Source of the DNA: Bdellovibrio sp.
Lineage (GTDB): Bacteria > Bdellovibrionota > Bdellovibrionia > Bdellovibrionales > Bdellovibrionaceae
DNA: 29,992 bases
Direction of reading: 5' to 3'
Assembly: GCA_019104905.1 (NCBI GenBank)
Contig: JAHRXB010000292.1
Span: 1-29,992 of the forward strand
Positions within the stretch are counted from its first letter, which is position 1. Each line of letters opens with the position of its first letter. The position numbers were made by a program, and so were the translations under genes. Of the stretch, positions 8,850 through 29,201 are shown piece by piece. The notes beneath the pieces were generated by a model. It searched no databases and was not told the origin of the DNA. It saw nothing but the letters and a program-made list of their open reading frames with translations.

Positions 8850-10025
8850 ATGCGTTTATCTTTGATCCTGACAACAGCTTTGATTTTTCTTCTTGGAGGT
8901 CCGGTCAAGGCGCAACAAACCGAATTGATCGATAGAACTTTTTCGGGAGTTTCCAAAGAAAAAACTCCTCAAGGAGCTAAGAAAGAGATTCAAGATCAGG
9001 CGGCTCAGAAAATTTCCGAGGAAATTATTAAAGAGCTGATCGGTGAAGAGCGTTTCCTTAAAAACAAGTCACTGATTCAAACCAAGATCATCAAAAATTC
9101 GGCTCAGTACATCCCGTTTGCAAAACCGTCCCCCATGACTCAAGAAGGGGAAGAGTTTAAAATGTCCGTGGCCTTGAAGGTTTCTTTGCGAGATCTCAAG
9201 CAGATGCTTCAGAATAATACTCTTTTAAATGAAAATGACGCCATTCCAGTTGTGTTGCCGGTGATCAGTTGGTCGGACCGCGTGCAGGGACGGAGTTATC
9301 GTTGGTGGATTCCTGGAGAAAAGAATCAACAAGCCTTTTTGTTGAAGGAAGGCCGTCTGCTAGAGAATGCCTTAAGGACGTCGTTTCAAAAAAACAACTT
9401 CTACGTCATTAAGCCCATTGAGTCCGGTCTTGGAACAAATGTCCCCGCAGATTTTCACAATGAAAAAATCGCCGGGGAAGATGCTCAGTTTTTTGCGCAA
9501 TACTTTAACGCCCCCCTGTTGATTGACGGGCAGGTTCTTTTGACTAAAGGAGAGCGTGGAAACAACTATCGTATTGAAATTCGAATGACCGCAGTTCAAG
9601 TCAGTAATGGGCGAGCGATCGCCGATGTATCCCGTCGCTTTGATACCGAGTCAGGATCTTTGGAAAATGCAGTCGATAAAAAACTTCGTGAGGTCGCAGA
9701 AACCACGGCGAATGATTTGTCTTCGCAGGTTTTGGAAGCTTGGCAAAGAGGCTCTTTAGGGACTTCGACAATTCGTGTGACGATTCAAGGACGCAACGCT
9801 CTTCCGTTGATGGAGGGGGTAAAAGAAAAGATTCGTTCTCAAATCACGCAGGTGAAAAATATTCGAGAACGTTTGGTGAGCTCTGAATCTGTGAGTTTTG
9901 AGGTCGACACCTCGGTGTCTGCCGCAGAGCTATTGGGAAAACTAGAGGCTTTGGATGTCAATGGAAAGAAGCTTTCCAAGGTGTCTGAAGAGCGCGATGA
10001 AATTGTTTTGAAATGGGTTCAGTAG
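8850..10025 (+). CDS. Exported protein resembling the N-terminal and middle parts of FlgT
   Basis: 391 residues with a clear signal peptide (hydrophobic core LILTTALIFLLGG, probable cleavage after VKA at about residue 21). A helix-rich segment at about 35-70 (GAKKEIQDQAAQKISEEII) followed by a strand with the pattern Y-IPF...FKMSVALKVSL is like the N-terminal domain of the flagellar protein FlgT and related LPP20/CsgG-associated domains. A second alpha/beta domain (about 130-270) begins with hydrophobic strands (AIPVVLPVISW) and includes LLENALRTSF and APLLIDGQVLL, the layout of the FlgT middle or CsgG-like fold. The SD GAGAGG (8838-8843) lies inside the end of dnaE, and the ATG is two bases after its stop, so it is co-transcribed with dnaE. 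The FlgT resemblance is by pattern only. Confidence 0.6.
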   Translation: MRLSLILTTALIFLLGGPVKAQQTELIDRTFSGVSKEKTPQGAKKEIQDQAAQKISEEIIKELIGEERFLKNKSLIQTKIIKNSAQYIPFAKPSPMTQEGEEFKMSVALKVSLRDLKQMLQNNTLLNENDAIPVVLPVISWSDRVQGRSYRWWIPGEKNQQAFLLKEGRLLENALRTSFQKNNFYVIKPIESGLGTNVPADFHNEKIAGEDAQFFAQYFNAPLLIDGQVLLTKGERGNNYRIEIRMTAVQVSNGRAIADVSRRFDTESGSLENAVDKKLREVAETTANDLSSQVLEAWQRGSLGTSTIRVTIQGRNALPLMEGVKEKIRSQITQVKNIRERLVSSESVSFEVDTSVSAAELLGKLEALDVNGKKLSKVSEERDEIVLKWVQ

Positions 10026-10036
10026 GAGTTGTGATC

Positions 10037-10963
10037 ATGAAAAGAATTATCTCGTCCCTTCTTCTTTTGGTTTTGTCTGCATGTACAACCTTGGATCGCA
10101 GCACTCCCTCAGTGCGACGTGAAATCAAAGACGTGAACTACGAGGCACGCAAAGAGGACGCTTCTCCTCGGAAGCGTTTGATGGTTCTTCCCTTTCTGGA
10201 TGCTTCGGAAGCTCGTCCTGTCCAGCTAAAGGAAAAGGCTCGCAATGCCTTTATCGCTGATTTAAATCGCACAGGTGAAGTGATTGCTTTAGATAGCAAA
10301 GAATTGAATGTGGATCTTTCTAAGATGACTCAAGGGGGTCAGTACAAACTGCCGGAAGTGGCAAAGCTGGCTCAGGCTTTGGGTGTGAATGCTGTTTTAG
10401 AGGGAAAGATCCTTGATATTCGCATTAAAAGAAAGTCTGACAACGTCGGCGTGGTTCGACATCTCTCGACGGCTTTTGAAGTTGTCGCGCAGGTGCGTGT
10501 GGTAACGGGCCGAGCGGGGCGTGAAGTTTTTAATACCGTTAAGACTGTGACGGTCGAAGAACAAGGGGTTCGCGTTGCTGAAAGAGTCGAGACAGACAAA
10601 TTTTTAGCGAACAATCCTGAAATGATTGAAGTCATCGTAAAAGATGCTTTTTTGGATTTTACGCCTCAAGTTCTAGCCTCTTTAGATAAAGTGACTTGGG
10701 AAGGACGTATTGCTGCGATCAACGGAGACCGTATCTATTTGAACGTGGGACGGGTATCCGGTCTTCAAGTGGGTGATCTTTTGAAAGTCACCGAAGATGG
10801 AGATGATGTTTATGATCCTGAAAGCGGCGGTCATATTGGTCGTGTGCCGGGACGCCTGAAGGGAACGCTGGAAGTTATCAGCTACTTTGGGAACGATGGG
10901 GCCATCGCTGTGATTCACTCTGGATCTGGATTTAAAGAGAACGACAGGATTGAATTATATTAA
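10037..10963 (+). CDS. CsgG/FlgT-like outer membrane lipoprotein
   Basis: 308 residues from ATG 10037, which has AGGAG at 10024-10028. An in-frame ATG at 10013 overlaps the previous gene and would spoil the lipoprotein signal. The signal peptide ends in the lipobox LSAC with lipidated Cys16. A CsgG-like alpha/beta domain follows (RLMVLPFLDAS, then LAQALGVNAVLEGKILDI). The last ~85 residues, with GRIAAINGDRIYLNVGRVSGLQVGDLLKV in outline and a DPESGGHIG turn, match the C-terminal beta-barrel-like domain of FlgT. FlgT builds the H-ring of sodium-driven Vibrio flagella. With the preceding gene, eleven bases away, it could make a two-protein version of FlgT; a CsgG-type secretion role is the alternative. 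Gene order dnaE then this pair suggests one operon. Confidence 0.65.
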   Translation: MKRIISSLLLLVLSACTTLDRSTPSVRREIKDVNYEARKEDASPRKRLMVLPFLDASEARPVQLKEKARNAFIADLNRTGEVIALDSKELNVDLSKMTQGGQYKLPEVAKLAQALGVNAVLEGKILDIRIKRKSDNVGVVRHLSTAFEVVAQVRVVTGRAGREVFNTVKTVTVEEQGVRVAERVETDKFLANNPEMIEVIVKDAFLDFTPQVLASLDKVTWEGRIAAINGDRIYLNVGRVSGLQVGDLLKVTEDGDDVYDPESGGHIGRVPGRLKGTLEVISYFGNDGAIAVIHSGSGFKENDRIELY

Positions 10964-11050: not shown

Positions 11051-12808
11051 GTGAAAGCTCTTTCCATTTTGCTATTTACCACTCTCAATATCTGCTGTGT
11101 ATATTCTCAAGCGAAAACTTGGGATGTTTCAGTTCTTTATTGGAGCATGAAGATCGAAGGCCAGGTTGCGATGCGAAAGGGCTTCGAAGAAGAAATCGGT
11201 AATTTCAATAAAAAAAGTTCCGACAAAATCAAGATCACTCCCTATGTTGCGGGCGAGGGGCGAAAAGGTATCGTACAGCAGGTGTCGCAAATGGATGAGG
11301 CTGTCAAAAAAAAGCCCCATGCGATTGTAATTCAACCCACTGACAATTCAGCACTTGCCTCGGGGCTCTTGCTTGCCAATAAAGCCAATATTCCCGTCAT
11401 TGCTTATGATCAATACATTGTAAATGGGACATTGGCCTCATTTCTGACAAGTGACAACTATCAGGGAGGCTGGGATGACGGCCTTCATGTGGAGTCTCTT
11501 TTTGATCGTTCCCATGAGATTCAGATCGTTGTTTTCGAATACCCACGAGTGTCTTCCACGATTGATCGTGTGGATGGTTTCTTTGATGCTCTTCGCAGTC
11601 GAGGACAGAAGTTTCGTGTCTTAAAACGCTATGATGCTGTTGATCCGGAGTCTGGAGAAAAAGCCGCAAAAAAATTCCTTCAGGATTTTCCGACAAAAGG
11701 CAGTGTGGATTTGATTCTGACTGTGAATGATGGCGGAGGGATTTCAATCGTCAAAGCCCTCTGGGAAAAAAAGAGGACGGAAATTCGTCATGCCACGTTT
11801 GACGGTGCTCCAGAATCAATTCAAAACATAAAAGAAGAACGTTTGACCGTCGTCAATTCCGCTCAGTATTGCGCAGAGCTGGGACGGGAAACTGCTCGCA
11901 CACTCATCGCAGCCCTTCTGGGTAAGTCCATTTCCCCCAAAAAACTGATTCCCACCTTTCCGGTCACGAAGCAAAATGTAAAAGAATATCCCGGCTGGAT
12001 GGGACGTCCAACGGGGAATTTCGCTCAGCGGGATAATCAAAAATTATCAAGTGATCTGGATCGCCGACCATCCAGTCAAAAAAATAGGAATATATTGAAT
12101 ATTCGCATTGGTGTTGCGCCTCTCTGCCCCTACCTTTGTGAAACGGGGCCTGGAAAATGGAGTGGATACATCTATGACATTCTTACTGAGGTGGCGAAAG
12201 CTCGAGACTTTTCATTTCAACTGGAAAGCATTCCCAATACTCGTTTAGTTTCAGCTCTGCAAACGGGGAAGGTTAATTACATTATAGTTCCCTCCTATAT
12301 TGTGCGCTATTTGTCTGATATTCGGGTCATGGGTCCTAAGTTGGGGGTCAGCTATACCGGGGCGCTTCTTCCCAGTGCCGACAAAGAGTCTATTATTGAC
12401 GAAGAATCGTTTAGAAATAAGAAAGTCATCTTTGGGGATATGGCGACGGATCCAGAACTCAAGGTGGATCTTGGTAATGCTGTGAGAGGAACAAAGTTAA
12501 CGGGGGCCGATGTCTCAGAGCGTATGATCAAAATGATCGGTGACGGACGAGCTTCACTGGCCTTGGGGGATTATAATGTTCTTCGTTATTCCTTGATGAA
12601 AGACGCAAATCCATCTTTGCGTCTTACGGCCACGTCGCTGACGGGATTTAACTCTTTGGTATTGGTGGGGACACCCAAACAGCCTGAATTCGGTTATCTG
12701 CCCAAGAATTTAGATGACTGGTTCCGTGAGGCTCGAATCGATGGAACTCTTAAAAAGATTCTTGAAAAATACAATCTGCAGGATTGGGATATTTTTACCA
12801 GGGGATAG
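11051..12808 (+). CDS. Secreted fusion of a type I and a type II periplasmic binding protein
   Basis: 585 residues from GTG 11051, which is needed to give the signal peptide (core LSILLFTTLNICCV, probable cleavage after SQA at residue 21). Residues 25-320 are a ribose/galactose-type (Peripla_BP_4) binding fold: VLYWSMKIEG, AIVIQPTDNSA, IPVIAYDQYI, VDLILTVNDGGG and HATFDGAPES are the usual strands. A polar linker (about 330-350) leads to a second fold at 353-585 of the SBP_bac_3 type: IRIGVAPLCPYLCE, GYIYDILTEVAKARDF, LQTGKVNYIIVPSY, FRNKKVIFGDMATD, DGRASLALGDYN. No membrane segment, kinase or permease gene is attached, so it is probably a free periplasmic protein. What the two domains bind, and which partner reads them, is unknown. 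It ends four bases from the convergent tetR stop. Confidence 0.8.
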   Translation: MKALSILLFTTLNICCVYSQAKTWDVSVLYWSMKIEGQVAMRKGFEEEIGNFNKKSSDKIKITPYVAGEGRKGIVQQVSQMDEAVKKKPHAIVIQPTDNSALASGLLLANKANIPVIAYDQYIVNGTLASFLTSDNYQGGWDDGLHVESLFDRSHEIQIVVFEYPRVSSTIDRVDGFFDALRSRGQKFRVLKRYDAVDPESGEKAAKKFLQDFPTKGSVDLILTVNDGGGISIVKALWEKKRTEIRHATFDGAPESIQNIKEERLTVVNSAQYCAELGRETARTLIAALLGKSISPKKLIPTFPVTKQNVKEYPGWMGRPTGNFAQRDNQKLSSDLDRRPSSQKNRNILNIRIGVAPLCPYLCETGPGKWSGYIYDILTEVAKARDFSFQLESIPNTRLVSALQTGKVNYIIVPSYIVRYLSDIRVMGPKLGVSYTGALLPSADKESIIDEESFRNKKVIFGDMATDPELKVDLGNAVRGTKLTGADVSERMIKMIGDGRASLALGDYNVLRYSLMKDANPSLRLTATSLTGFNSLVLVGTPKQPEFGYLPKNLDDWFREARIDGTLKKILEKYNLQDWDIFTRG

Positions 12809-25143: not shown

Positions 25144-25581
25144 ATGATGAGAGTTTTATTGCTGTCTATCGCGATGATTTTTTCGGGGGCGTCTTCAGGA
25201 TTTGCCGCTAGCAACCCTTGGATGAGAACTTGCCGTATTGATCTAGGTCAGTTCTGGGTTTTAAAAGCGGGCAGCGAAGAACTTGCCATGTGTTTCTTTG
25301 GAGACGCCGGAGTTGGAGCTGAGGCCTTCTTTCTTTTTAAAACAAACTCTGGAGTGACTGAAGCTATCGAAGCTTATAAGAGCAGAAACTCGTCTTCCGC
25401 TCGCGGGGGAGTTTGCGGTGCTTTCGGTGCGGAGTTGGTTGAAGGAAAAGACACCAACGGACAAACTTTCAATGTCTGCCGTTTTATGGATCAGTCTTTG
25501 ATTGAAGAAACCACTTTGTGGTTGGGACCTGGTTCTGCCGGACATGGCGGCTTGGACCGCGCCCTGTCATCGACTTACTAA
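25144..25581 (+). CDS. Small secreted cysteine-containing protein, function unknown
   Basis: 145 residues from ATG 25144 (a second ATG follows at once); GGAG lies ten bases upstream. The signal peptide has core VLLLSIAMIFSGASS and ends in FAA. The mature protein has four cysteines (in RTCRI, AMCFF, GVCGA and NVCRF), enough for two disulfides. The segment GGVCGAFGAELVEGK then QTFNVCRFMDQSLIEETTL has a loose likeness to DUF333-type secreted domains (Cys, about 20 residues, VC-F-D-S-IEE), but the match is too weak to name a family. The gene is transcribed divergently from the RNA methyltransferase. Its stop overlaps the stop of the convergent 2H phosphoesterase gene by four bases. Confidence 0.65.
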   Translation: MMRVLLLSIAMIFSGASSGFAASNPWMRTCRIDLGQFWVLKAGSEELAMCFFGDAGVGAEAFFLFKTNSGVTEAIEAYKSRNSSSARGGVCGAFGAELVEGKDTNGQTFNVCRFMDQSLIEETTLWLGPGSAGHGGLDRALSSTY

Positions 25582-26222
25582 TTTTTTTCGTTTTCTTCAG
25601 GACGCAAGGAATAGATACAAGAACTTGCGTCCTTGATCACCCCGTCTTCCAAGTGAAGATCTCTTTTGGTGAAGCCCAAGGTCACATGAGGATGATAAGT
25701 TTCGGGGCTGAAGTCTTCCGCGTTTCCGCCTTTTGAAGTGTAGAGCAGATGCACTGCTTTACGAATCTGGAAAAGTCGATCTGATTCAACAACAACGTAA
25801 TATGTGGACTCGTCCTTCCCGTGATCCTTCGCGGTCCCTTTTCCTACGCAAAGAAGCTTATAGGGAGCTTTATTTAAATCCATACTTTCTGCCAACGCAG
25901 AGATCTCTTTCATAGAGATCTTCTTCTGCATCTTTTTGTATTCCGGAGGAGTGATGACAGTGATATGCGCCTCTCCGCGATTTTGCAAAGAGGTGTGTTG
26001 TGATTTTTCCACATCATGGCGGATCTTTTCAAAGGCCGCGTAAGGCAGATCCAAAGAGAGATATGATTTATTCTCTTTTTTATGGTCAACCGAGGCGATG
26101 GATCGATTGGCTGTTTTTAGATCTTGAGGGGAGTAGCGCAGTTGAGAGAGGGCGTAGGGAGAAGGACTTGCACAGGCTGTCATTGAAAGGGAAATGATAA
26201 TCCAGTGAAACGTGCGCATCAT
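25578..26222 (-). CDS. Lipoprotein with a 2H phosphoesterase (LigT/CPDase-like) domain
   Basis: 214 residues from the ATG at 26222; an in-frame ATG at 26237 would add five residues. The signal peptide (core WIIISLSM) ends in the lipobox MTAC with lipidated Cys17. The rest, about 50-200, carries two His-x-Thr motifs: H86-I-T88-V (EAHITVITPPEY) and H179-V-T181-L (YHPHVTLGFT), about 93 residues apart. This is the signature of the 2H phosphoesterase superfamily, which includes 2'-5' RNA ligase/LigT, cyclic phosphodiesterases and 2',5'-phosphodiesterases acting on RNA ends or cyclic phosphates. Most known members are cytoplasmic; this one is exported and lipid-anchored. The substrate is unknown. 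It is divergent from the M28 peptidase lipoprotein gene, and the two share a 63-base promoter region. Confidence 0.75.
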   Translation of the reverse strand: MMRTFHWIIISLSMTACASPSPYALSQLRYSPQDLKTANRSIASVDHKKENKSYLSLDLPYAAFEKIRHDVEKSQHTSLQNRGEAHITVITPPEYKKMQKKISMKEISALAESMDLNKAPYKLLCVGKGTAKDHGKDESTYYVVVESDRLFQIRKAVHLLYTSKGGNAEDFSPETYHPHVTLGFTKRDLHLEDGVIKDASSCIYSLRPEENEKN

Positions 26223-26232
26223 AAGTTCTCTT

Positions 26233-26276
26233 TTCATAGGCGTTGAGTTGACTTCAGCAAGACCTCCTTTTAGCCT
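26233..26276. promoter_or_regulatory. Back-to-back promoters of the two divergent lipoprotein genes
   Basis: Plus strand: TTGACT (26248-26253), 17-base spacer, TAGCCT (26271-26276); predicted start near 26283, ATG at 26286. Minus strand: TTGCTG (complement of 26255-26260), 16-base spacer, TATGAA (complement of 26233-26238); predicted start near 26226, ATG at 26222. The two -35 boxes are one base apart. Neither gene has a convincing Shine-Dalgarno, so both mRNAs would be nearly leaderless. The plus-strand region even carries CCTCC (26263-26267), the opposite of an SD. Confidence 0.45.
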
Positions 26277-26285
26277 ACACACACT

Positions 26286-29201
26286 ATGAAAAAAGTGAAA
26301 GTTCTTCTTACAAGTGCCTGCATTTTCTCTGTAATTTCCTGCCAATTTAAGGAAGCCAAACCAGTAAAATCTCCCTCTGAGACTGGCTCTTCCCAAGGGT
26401 CTTTTTTGAATGAACCCAACGCTTTGGTGGGTGAAGCTCGTCAGATGACCTTCGTAGGTCCTAAGTCGGGAGAGGGGTATTTCAGTCCCGATGGAAAAAA
26501 GATGATTTTCCAAAGTGAACGGGAACCGGGAAATCCTTTTTACCAAATGTATGTCATGGATCTTCTCACCGGGAATACCACCCGCGTTTCTCCGGGGCAT
26601 GGCAAGACGACCTGTGGATGGATTCATCCGTCGATGACGAAGGTATTATACTCTTCAACTCATTTGGATCCCGAGACCCAAAAGAAAACTCAGGACGAAT
26701 ATGAAAATCGTAAGAAGGCAGTGAAGGCTCGTTACGCTTGGAGCTTTGATGATAACTACGACATCTTCACGTCGGATCTGCAAGGTAAGAACATTCAGCG
26801 TTTAACCAAGGAAAAGGGATATGATGCGGAGGGGTCTTACTCTCCCGATGGTCAGTGGATCGCCTTTGCCTCCAATCGTGCTGGTTATACGGAAACTCTG
26901 ACGGGGGAAGATAAAAAGCTTTTTGATCAGGACTCGTCCTATATGATGGATATTTACATCATGAAGGCGGACGGAACCCAGGTGAAACGCCTTACAAACA
27001 GTAAGGGATATGATGGGGGACCGTTCTTCAGTGCGGATGGCAAGAAGATCACATGGCGTCGTTTTTCTCCGAATGGTTCAACGGCTGAGATCTTTACCAT
27101 GAATGTCGATGGCAGTGATCAGAAACAAATCACTCACTTGAAGTCGATGTCTTGGGCTCCCTTCTTTCATCCTTCTGGTGATTACGTTATTTTTGGGTCC
27201 AGCGTTCTGGGTTATTCCAATTTCGAACTCTTTATTGTGGATGCAGCGGGAACTAAAGCCCCTGTGCGCGTGACTTTTGATGACGGCTTTGATGGACTTC
27301 CGGTCTTCACTCCCGATGGGAATGGACTTTCCTGGACTCATAGAAATGAAAAGGGCGAATCGCAAATTCTAATTGCGAAGTGGGATGATGCTTTAGCGAG
27401 AAAGCTTTTGGGTCTTCCGGTTCAGGATCCCGCCCTAGGCTCTTTAAGTCCCGATGTGCGAGTGGAAGATGTTAAGAAATGGGTTTACTATCTTTCGTCT
27501 CCAGAGATGCAGGGGCGTGGAACTGGTACTGGCGAAGAAAAGGTTTATACGGAAAAGCTCGCGCAACTCTTGAAGTCTTGGGGGCTTGAAGGAGCTGGAC
27601 CTAAGGGTTCCTTCTTTCAGACCTTCGAATTCACTTCAGGTGTGAATTTGGGAGCTCAGAATTCACTTGAAGTTGTTGGTTCTTACGCTAAGAAATTCGA
27701 ACTTTCTAAAGATTATGAGCCTGTGTCATTCTCAAAAACTGGAGAGTTTAGAGAAGCACCGATTGTTTTTGCCGGTTATGGAATCAAGGCGCCTGCCAGC
27801 GATAAAGAGGTGGAATACAATTCCTATAAAGGTCTGGATGTAAAAGGGAAGTGGGTTATGGTTCTTACGGACCTTCCTGCGGATATTTCCCCAGCACGCC
27901 GTCATTATTTGAATCTTTACTCTCGCCTGCAACATAAGGTGACCGTTGCGAAAAATGAAGGTGCGGTAGGTATTCTTGTTATCAACGGGCCTCTAAGTGG
28001 TGTGCCTGATAAGTTCGGTAAGGTGAAGTTCGAGGGATCTTTGTCTGAAAGCACTTTGGGTGTTTTGAGGCTTTCGACTTCGGCTGCGACAGATCTTTTA
28101 AAATATGCAGGACATGATTTAAGTTCTTTGCAGAAGACCTTGGATAAAGGCGGCTCTATCGAAGCTGTAAGTATTCCTTCAGCATATGTGAAGGCGAAGA
28201 TTGATTTGCAGTTCCAGAAGTCTCAAGGCACCAACGTGATTGCGAAACTTCCCATCAAAGGGGCGAAGTCCGCAGTGTTGATTGGGGCTCACGGGGATCA
28301 TCTGGGCTTTGGTCAGTTTGGCAACAGTTTGGCGCGTGGTGCAGAGGTAGGACGCCCTCATTATGGTGCTGACGATAATGCTTCGGGCGTTTCGGGCGTT
28401 ATGGAACTTGCGCATTACTATGCAAATCTCAAGAAGACATCACCGCATAAGATTCAAAAGAATTTGTACTTCGCTGTGTGGTCTGGGGAAGAGCTTGGCA
28501 ATTTAGGCTCCTCTCATTTTGCCAAAGAAACTGTGAAACATAATTTGGAGGCCTACATCAACATGGATATGATCGGCCGCTTGAAGGATCGCCTTTTTGT
28601 GCAAGGTCTAGGTTCTGCTGACAACTGGACCCGTATTGCTGAAGAAGTGGGAATTCGCACAGCGACGCCCATGATCATTCAAGAAGACCCCTACTTGCCA
28701 ACGGACTCTTTGGCTCTTTACATGGCCGGCGTTCCGACAGCGAACTTCTTTACAGGATCTCATGGGGAGTATCATACACCTCGAGATGTGGCGGATTTAA
28801 TCAACTATGAGGGTGTGGTTAAGGTCCTTAATGCTGTTCAAGGGTTTACGGATTTATTGACGGACTCAAAAGTGCAGATGGTCAAATACGTGAAGGTAGC
28901 CAGCGCCCAAAGTAAGATGGAAGGTCGTACGTTCCGTGTTTATCTAGGCACCATCCCGGATTACTCTCAAGAAGGAGTCAAAGGCGTCCGTATTACTGGC
29001 GCGTCCAAGGACAGCCCTGGTGAGGTTGCGGGATTAAAGGATAAAGACATCATCACTGAGTTTGATGGAACAAAGATTGAAAACCTTTATGATTACGTTT
29101 ACACGCTTCAGTCGGTAAAACCGAATAAAGAGACGACGATGAAAGTCTTAAGGGATGGTAAGTCGCTGGAGTTGAAGATCACTCCTAAGCTGAAAGAGTA
29201 G
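26286..29201 (+). CDS. Lipoprotein peptidase: beta-propeller, PA, M28 zinc peptidase and PDZ domains
   Basis: 971 residues. The lipobox VISC ends the signal peptide with lipidated Cys19. Residues ~50-390 contain TolB/PD40-type propeller repeats (YFSPDGKKMIFQS, SYSPDGQWIAFAS, FFSADGKKITWR, VFTPDGNGLSW). A PA-like domain follows at ~480-650. The M28 aminopeptidase domain (~650-860) has every expected zinc ligand and helper: His669 and Asp671 in HGDH, Asp696 in ADDNASG, Glu735/Glu736 in GEELG, Asp761 in NMDMIGR, and His830 in YHTPRD. A PDZ domain (~885-971: GVRITGASKDSPGEVAGLKDKDII) closes the protein. M28 enzymes remove N-terminal residues from peptides; the propeller and PDZ domains probably select or hold substrates. 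Located at the outer membrane or periplasm, it could digest peptides outside the cytoplasm. A strong terminator follows. Confidence 0.92.
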   Translation: MKKVKVLLTSACIFSVISCQFKEAKPVKSPSETGSSQGSFLNEPNALVGEARQMTFVGPKSGEGYFSPDGKKMIFQSEREPGNPFYQMYVMDLLTGNTTRVSPGHGKTTCGWIHPSMTKVLYSSTHLDPETQKKTQDEYENRKKAVKARYAWSFDDNYDIFTSDLQGKNIQRLTKEKGYDAEGSYSPDGQWIAFASNRAGYTETLTGEDKKLFDQDSSYMMDIYIMKADGTQVKRLTNSKGYDGGPFFSADGKKITWRRFSPNGSTAEIFTMNVDGSDQKQITHLKSMSWAPFFHPSGDYVIFGSSVLGYSNFELFIVDAAGTKAPVRVTFDDGFDGLPVFTPDGNGLSWTHRNEKGESQILIAKWDDALARKLLGLPVQDPALGSLSPDVRVEDVKKWVYYLSSPEMQGRGTGTGEEKVYTEKLAQLLKSWGLEGAGPKGSFFQTFEFTSGVNLGAQNSLEVVGSYAKKFELSKDYEPVSFSKTGEFREAPIVFAGYGIKAPASDKEVEYNSYKGLDVKGKWVMVLTDLPADISPARRHYLNLYSRLQHKVTVAKNEGAVGILVINGPLSGVPDKFGKVKFEGSLSESTLGVLRLSTSAATDLLKYAGHDLSSLQKTLDKGGSIEAVSIPSAYVKAKIDLQFQKSQGTNVIAKLPIKGAKSAVLIGAHGDHLGFGQFGNSLARGAEVGRPHYGADDNASGVSGVMELAHYYANLKKTSPHKIQKNLYFAVWSGEELGNLGSSHFAKETVKHNLEAYINMDMIGRLKDRLFVQGLGSADNWTRIAEEVGIRTATPMIIQEDPYLPTDSLALYMAGVPTANFFTGSHGEYHTPRDVADLINYEGVVKVLNAVQGFTDLLTDSKVQMVKYVKVASAQSKMEGRTFRVYLGTIPDYSQEGVKGVRITGASKDSPGEVAGLKDKDIITEFDGTKIENLYDYVYTLQSVKPNKETTMKVLRDGKSLELKITPKLKE

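Follow-up and report, generated by a model that had tools for sequence, protein, structure and literature searches.

The window analyzed here, a 29,992-nucleotide stretch of Bdellovibrio sp. DNA, encodes a protein in which an apparent signal peptide is followed by an RbsB-like type I periplasmic binding fold and an SBP_bac_3 type II binding fold, as judged from profile matches and structure models. We hold, with moderate confidence, that this fused protein is a stand-alone periplasmic sensor with two sites, for which the membrane receptor gene lies elsewhere. Its role is probably in sensing signals and not in uptake, because relatives have a sensor kinase next to the first half where the second half would otherwise be.

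Domain organization and candidate ligand sites

The fused gene and its parts are listed in Table 1. The type I and type II folds of the original prediction were recovered by profiles and by structure prediction of the full chain. The SBP_bac_3 profile matches the second half at 28.3 bits, against a cut-off of 26.4. The full-length model came without PAE, and we make no claim on the relative placement of the halves. The export signal without any other membrane helix, likewise predicted originally, agrees with the sequence and its hydropathy: no hydrophobic stretch is predicted beyond the signal peptide, and the model consists of two soluble domains. A permease domain in the same chain, as in GlnPQ, is absent by hydropathy and from the model. 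Cleavage was placed by eye after the Ala of SQA, the signal itself being based on sequence and hydropathy. Among the alignment rows, one of the 48 fused and two of the 46 free ones have a lipobox pattern, and the window protein has none.

Table 1. Fused binding protein gene of the window and its predicted parts
Feature	Position	Strand	Basis or remark
Fused two-domain periplasmic binding protein gene	11051..12808	+	585 aa, GTG start
Apparent signal peptide, residues 1-21	11051..11113	+	Hydropathy, helix 2-16 in model, N-termini of 19 fused proteins (window's included)
Type I (Peripla_BP_4, RbsB-like) domain, residues 23-320	11117..12010	+	Pfam, structure, alignment rows
Polar linker, residues 321-347	12011..12091	+	Mostly low pLDDT, constraint looser
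Type II (SBP_bac_3) domain, residues 348-585	12092..12805	+	Profile match, R419 and D507 invariant, CPYxC motif

Residues D120, R173, N226, D251 and Q272 of the first half align with D89, R141, N190, D215 and Q235 of RbsB, which we take to be its ribose-contacting residues, and are invariant in the 48 fused and 46 free rows. R90 and the N-terminal Phe pair of RbsB are altered. The first half has both an RbsB-type fold and polar ligand-contact residues, and its ligand is likely sugar-like. In the second half, the invariant D507 aligns with the amine-binding acidic residue of amino-acid binding proteins, and R419 is HMM-aligned two residues before the canonical Arg. The usual Ser/Thr motif, which together with Arg and Asp presumably forms the canonical alpha-amino-acid site of SBP_bac_3 proteins, is missing from the profile alignment. 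Because this motif is missing and the Arg lies two positions early, a normal amino-acid site is not established. An amino-acid-like ligand is plausible. The CPYxC motif is not kept in free proteins of the G034 type.

Distribution and conservation of the fusion

The original prediction had proposed looking for the same domain pair in related genomes. The fusion was found in 20 of the 368 Bdellovibrionota genomes searched, namely in 19 of the 24 genomes of the window's genus and in G077, which belongs to a different family. Ten of the 20 are single-contig assemblies; in one of them, G010, a frameshift away from the join spreads the fused gene (L047:8768-10629, plus strand) across two overlapping frames. 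A protein search, in which the best 7996 candidates were scored and the best 120 of 135 matches were taken, gave at least 64 fused clusters (P0002-P0065) among the matches listed, with identities down to 37%; these clusters include the window's own protein and some fragments. A contig scan with the fused protein as query gave one locus, and no plasmid copies were found at E 1e-20. Of the 20 fusion genomes, 8 have two or three fused copies, which stand in tandem in G011 and G013.

A homologue from a second Bdellovibrio MAG, 87% identical, served for comparison. Against it, dN/dS was 0.05 over the whole gene, the linker having 0.145 and the first and second halves 0.03 and 0.06; at a dS of 1.2-1.6 these ratios are rough. 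By this sequence comparison, both halves of the fusion are under purifying selection.

In free homologues, a W-x(3-10)-W tail occupies the place of the linker. Every one of the 56 free first-half proteins among the matches listed ends in this tail, and none of the 56 anchorable fused proteins has it. The check covered 65 fused proteins (with two entries, P0001 and P0002, for the window's), of which nine lacked an anchor, five of them truncated as judged by eye. Hydropathy gave no hydrophobic remnant in the linker of the signal peptide of the second protein.

A frameshift or error joining two originally separate genes, which the original prediction had named as a result that would overturn it, was checked for on these grounds. 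Two separate adjacent genes do occur in relatives, but an artefact of frameshift, assembly or sequencing at the join is ruled out by the recurrence of the fusion across genomes, half of them single-contig, and across clusters, together with the low dN/dS. A further point against it is that a linker stands in for the first protein's tail together with the signal peptide of its neighbor. The chance of such an artefact is negligible.

Exchange of partners among relatives

A profile of free first-half proteins (E <= 1e-60) located the first half in 33 of the 368 Bdellovibrionota genomes. Its partner is a type II protein in 26 of them, fused in 20 and encoded by the next gene in 6. In these split-pair genomes (G034, G108, G110, G111, G112 and G189) the type II gene lies directly downstream; with longest-ORF starts the two genes overlap by 1-8 bp in four of the six, and a fifth pair overlaps by 4 bp with the 265-aa start of P0122. 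An L-asparaginase II gene (L033:10589-11593, minus strand) lies 2 bp upstream of the split pair in G034, a possible hint of an amino-acid link.

In the other 7 of the 33 genomes the partner is a sensor histidine kinase, encoded by the next gene in six. In the seventh (G067) the contig breaks: the first half is near the end of one contig and the kinase sensor at the start of another. The neighboring kinases are about 700 aa long and begin 2-10 bp downstream of the first half in five of six cases (longest-ORF starts). All six kinases scanned have HisKA and HATPase domains by Pfam, with two predicted membrane helices flanking a periplasmic domain. This domain matched sCache_3_2 in four of the six, each time below the Pfam cut-off, and a modelled one (pLDDT 73, pTM 0.55) had the sensor domains of WalK and KinD as best matches. 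Both genomes of genus g17 that have a first half encode a single-domain response regulator ahead of the first-half gene (L034:8796-9236 and L035:8499-8891, plus strand), whereas the other four kinases examined have the receiver as part of their own chain.

The two partners were then traced with profiles of their own. The kinase sensor-domain profile matched 7 of the 368 genomes at E <= 1e-5, with 9.3e-83 as the weakest match, and all seven are kinase-paired first-half genomes; at this threshold, the idea that fused genomes conceal a copy of the partner kinase was thus rejected. One sensor domain used as query in a protein database returned eight proteins, one of them labelled Bacteriovorax. 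The second-half profile matched 26 of the 368 genomes at E <= 9.2e-75, exactly the 26 first-half genomes without the kinase. Eleven further genomes gave weaker matches (1.6e-27 to 1e-16), which we take as distant relatives, and 10 of these 11 have no first half. The kinase genome G116 has a weak second-half match (1.6e-22) with a stop inside. At the strong level, all 33 first-half genomes have one partner and none has both, each of the eight genera is pure for its partner state, and both the kinase sensor and the strong second-half matches are confined to first-half genomes among the 368 searched. Since the 33 genomes are related, they amount to far fewer independent cases.

A tree of 105 first halves was built, from which the frameshifted G010 copy was left out; the outgroup was too distant to root it. 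A branch with support 90/84, present in 87% of 200 bootstrap trees, sets the fusion apart from the rest; another (81/91) does the same for the kinase state, and the split state is scattered. The three partner states need only two changes on this unsurely rooted tree, and the fusion appears to have arisen once. Free first-half proteins are also found outside the phylum, for example in proteins labelled Rhodoferax or Magnetococcus. The W-x(3-10)-W tail is common to the kinase-paired and split forms examined, and its role may lie in contact with the partner or in the fold of the free protein itself.

This pattern indirectly supports the original prediction of a sensor for two ligands that would dock on a separate receptor: among the 33 genomes, the unfused first half accompanies a sensor kinase in 7, and the second half takes that place in the other 26. 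No receptor was found for the fused form with the kinase-core profile in 26 loci. Tentatively, a kinase-linked sensor and a kinase-free two-site sensor could be alternative states of one module in the Bdellovibrionota. A type II protein would have replaced the histidine kinase, or the reverse, and would then have been fused. One soluble protein would now integrate two ligands on behalf of an unlinked receptor, in predators that need to recognize prey or its contents.

Genomic context

Upstream of the first-copy gene, dnaE, a 391-aa gene and a 316-aa gene are present in all 14 first-copy loci with long flanks. The 391-aa neighbor gave no Pfam match, and the 316-aa protein (10013-10963 of the window, plus strand) is weakly FlgT/CsgG-like, at E 0.018-0.079 and below the cut-offs. 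The upstream genes are not partners of the fused gene, because the 316-aa gene persists in all five genus genomes without the fusion; with second fused copies sitting in other neighborhoods, a functional tie to the upstream genes is ruled out. In three of these five genomes (L132, L133 and L135) a gene in the tetR position and a thiolase come straight after, the former being in L135 a 190-aa gene without a match to the TetR of the window. A different gene of at least 477 aa comes next in L134 and L136. The fused gene is dispensable, since 5 of the 24 genus genomes are without it. Elsewhere in the window, a 2H phosphoesterase-like gene (25578-26627, minus strand) overlaps an M28 peptidase/PD40/PDZ gene (26286-29201, plus strand) in their longest-ORF forms, and no defence system was matched by PADLOC at E <= 0.01.

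For kinases, non-overlapping ORFs of at least 80 aa were scanned in 26 loci holding first and second half with a purpose-built kinase-core profile. A kinase adjoins the fused or split gene in none of the 26 loci, and the profile had no match among the window ORFs. Kinases lie at a distance in four loci (L048, L052, L033 and L088). In G003 (L048:14328-16940, plus strand) and G009 (L052:14044-16677, plus strand) a kinase-receiver gene follows the second fused copy at a distance of about 3.6 kb; the one in L048 has PAS, GAF, HisKA, HATPase and receiver domains by Pfam and no predicted membrane helix. The kinases of L033 and L088 are about 7-9 kb from the gene, and the other three second-copy loci gave no match to the kinase-core profile. 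A further free-standing SBP_bac_3 protein of 265-267 aa is encoded near the second fused copy in two genomes (L050:7811-8614 and L049:12953-13750, both plus strand). The gene stands alone as originally predicted, with neither a kinase nor a permease neighbor.

According to PMC11113362, the genes are adjacent or very close in 10 of 11 characterized couples of binding protein and kinase. The same study reports no binding in its own two adjacent cases, so adjacency can mislead and is not proof of partnership.

The lack of a linked kinase in the 26 loci, and of any other receptor seen, would also fit a scavenging, buffering or extracellular protein. Once secreted into the bdelloplast or periplasm, it would hold ligands or modulate another periplasmic process with no dedicated receptor. 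Dispensability of the gene points the same way. Such a role sits poorly, however, with purifying selection on both halves, with the exchange of the partner for a kinase among relatives and with the multiple fused copies in 8 of 20 fusion genomes, which suggest specificity. We regard it as quite improbable.

Permeases and the uptake alternative

Uptake was the other option of the original prediction, an uptake protein feeding two transporters, and it is the leading alternative to sensing. The halves would bring two ligands to a single ABC permease or a pair of them, encoded at other loci, in a GlnPQ-like but detached manner. Peripla_BP_4 and SBP_bac_3 are mostly transport families, which counts for uptake, and GlnPQ has tandem domains able to feed one permease. 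Two permease classes were covered, PF02653 and TIGR01726, and the permeases' own binding proteins were examined in the window genome and, for PAAT, in G003. PF02653 permeases are present in 29 of the 33 first-half genomes and TIGR01726 matches above the cut-off in 18. In the window genome, however, these permeases have binding proteins of their own. Its four PF02653 permeases belong to two operons, one of Liv type that includes a Peripla_BP_6 protein and one of Bmp type that includes a Bmp protein. Its sole PAAT operon encodes a dedicated SBP_bac_3 protein, and the same holds for the PAAT operon of G003. A CUT2 permease and ATPase partner was found neither in the locus nor to spare among the PF02653 matches of the window genome (88% complete). 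Moreover, TIGR01726 had no match in 12 of the 26 second-half genomes, all six split-pair genomes included, and only a sub-cut-off match in a thirteenth, G077. The split-pair genome G189 has neither class.

The uptake option is weakened by these results and appears unlikely. Sensing is favored over uptake because no cognate permease is evident in the window genome and because the first half is paired with kinases in seven genomes.

Comparison with known systems

XylFII-LytS, TorT-TorS and LuxP-LuxQ are systems in which a binding protein activates a sensor histidine kinase (PMC6321045). The fused protein resembles XylFII-LytS in its periplasmic type I fold with an export-type signal, but it is without a kinase neighbor and bears an additional binding fold of another kind. 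A further difference is that the relatives' kinase has a single sCache-like domain. An adjoining cognate kinase gene is lacking for the fused form and present in the unfused relatives of six genomes, with a seventh at a contig break.

GlnPQ likewise has two binding domains per chain and is the best solved sequence relative of the second half (6h30, E 1.3e-19). However, GlnPQ consists of two type II domains and a permease, whereas the fused protein is soluble and combines type I with type II. An RbsB-like fold also serves as sensor in 2x7x (E 7.6e-16 to the first-half profile), which we take to be a hybrid two-component sensor of Bacteroides; there the type I domain lies within the kinase chain, whereas the first half is a free protein.

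A type I domain followed by a type II domain is also the order in the extracellular region of ionotropic glutamate receptors. NMDA receptors were in the Foldseek list of the full-length model, with alignments of about 700 columns. At a query-normalised TM-score of 0.28-0.29 and an rmsd of 24.6 their arrangement is not shared, and the fused protein is without a membrane part. GlnH-GlnX of Corynebacterium has one domain and one ligand, and its architecture is not that of the fused protein. The likeness lies in a binding protein that signals via a transmembrane protein to a kinase, as PMC9769921 describes.

The original prediction had said that a system in which one soluble protein integrates two ligands would be new. 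The novelty lies in the soluble hetero-tandem form and in the exchange of a kinase for a binding protein. The general mechanism is that of known binding-protein/receptor signaling. No study of the fused protein, or of any soluble type I and type II fusion, was found in the top-ranked open-licence PMC literature.

Proposed mechanism and biological meaning

As a two-site sensor, the fused protein would close each half on its own ligand, the first sugar-like and the second perhaps amino-acid-like. The loaded protein would then contact an unlinked membrane receptor, which may be a chemoreceptor, a cyclase or a kinase. One soluble protein would in this way integrate two chemical cues, plausibly from prey or prey lysate. 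The W-x(3-10)-W tail may hold the free first half to its partner, a need that the fusion would remove.

Binding-protein-mediated receptor activation is widespread and hard to find, according to PMC11113362. In strain HD100 of Bdellovibrio, SBP_bac_3 proteins make up an unusual 69% of the binding-protein repertoire (PMC9602780). The available text of a predation transcriptome paper (PMC2797640) contains no mention of ribose or substrate-binding.

With its kinase-paired, pair-coupled and fused states, the first half offers a natural series on how a periplasmic sensor switches partner, and the same series bears on how one protein could read two ligands. The folds are ordinary, and their arrangement is unusual and informative: a candidate two-site soluble sensor kept in most of the genus. 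For Bdellovibrio, the fused protein is a defined candidate for chemical sensing.
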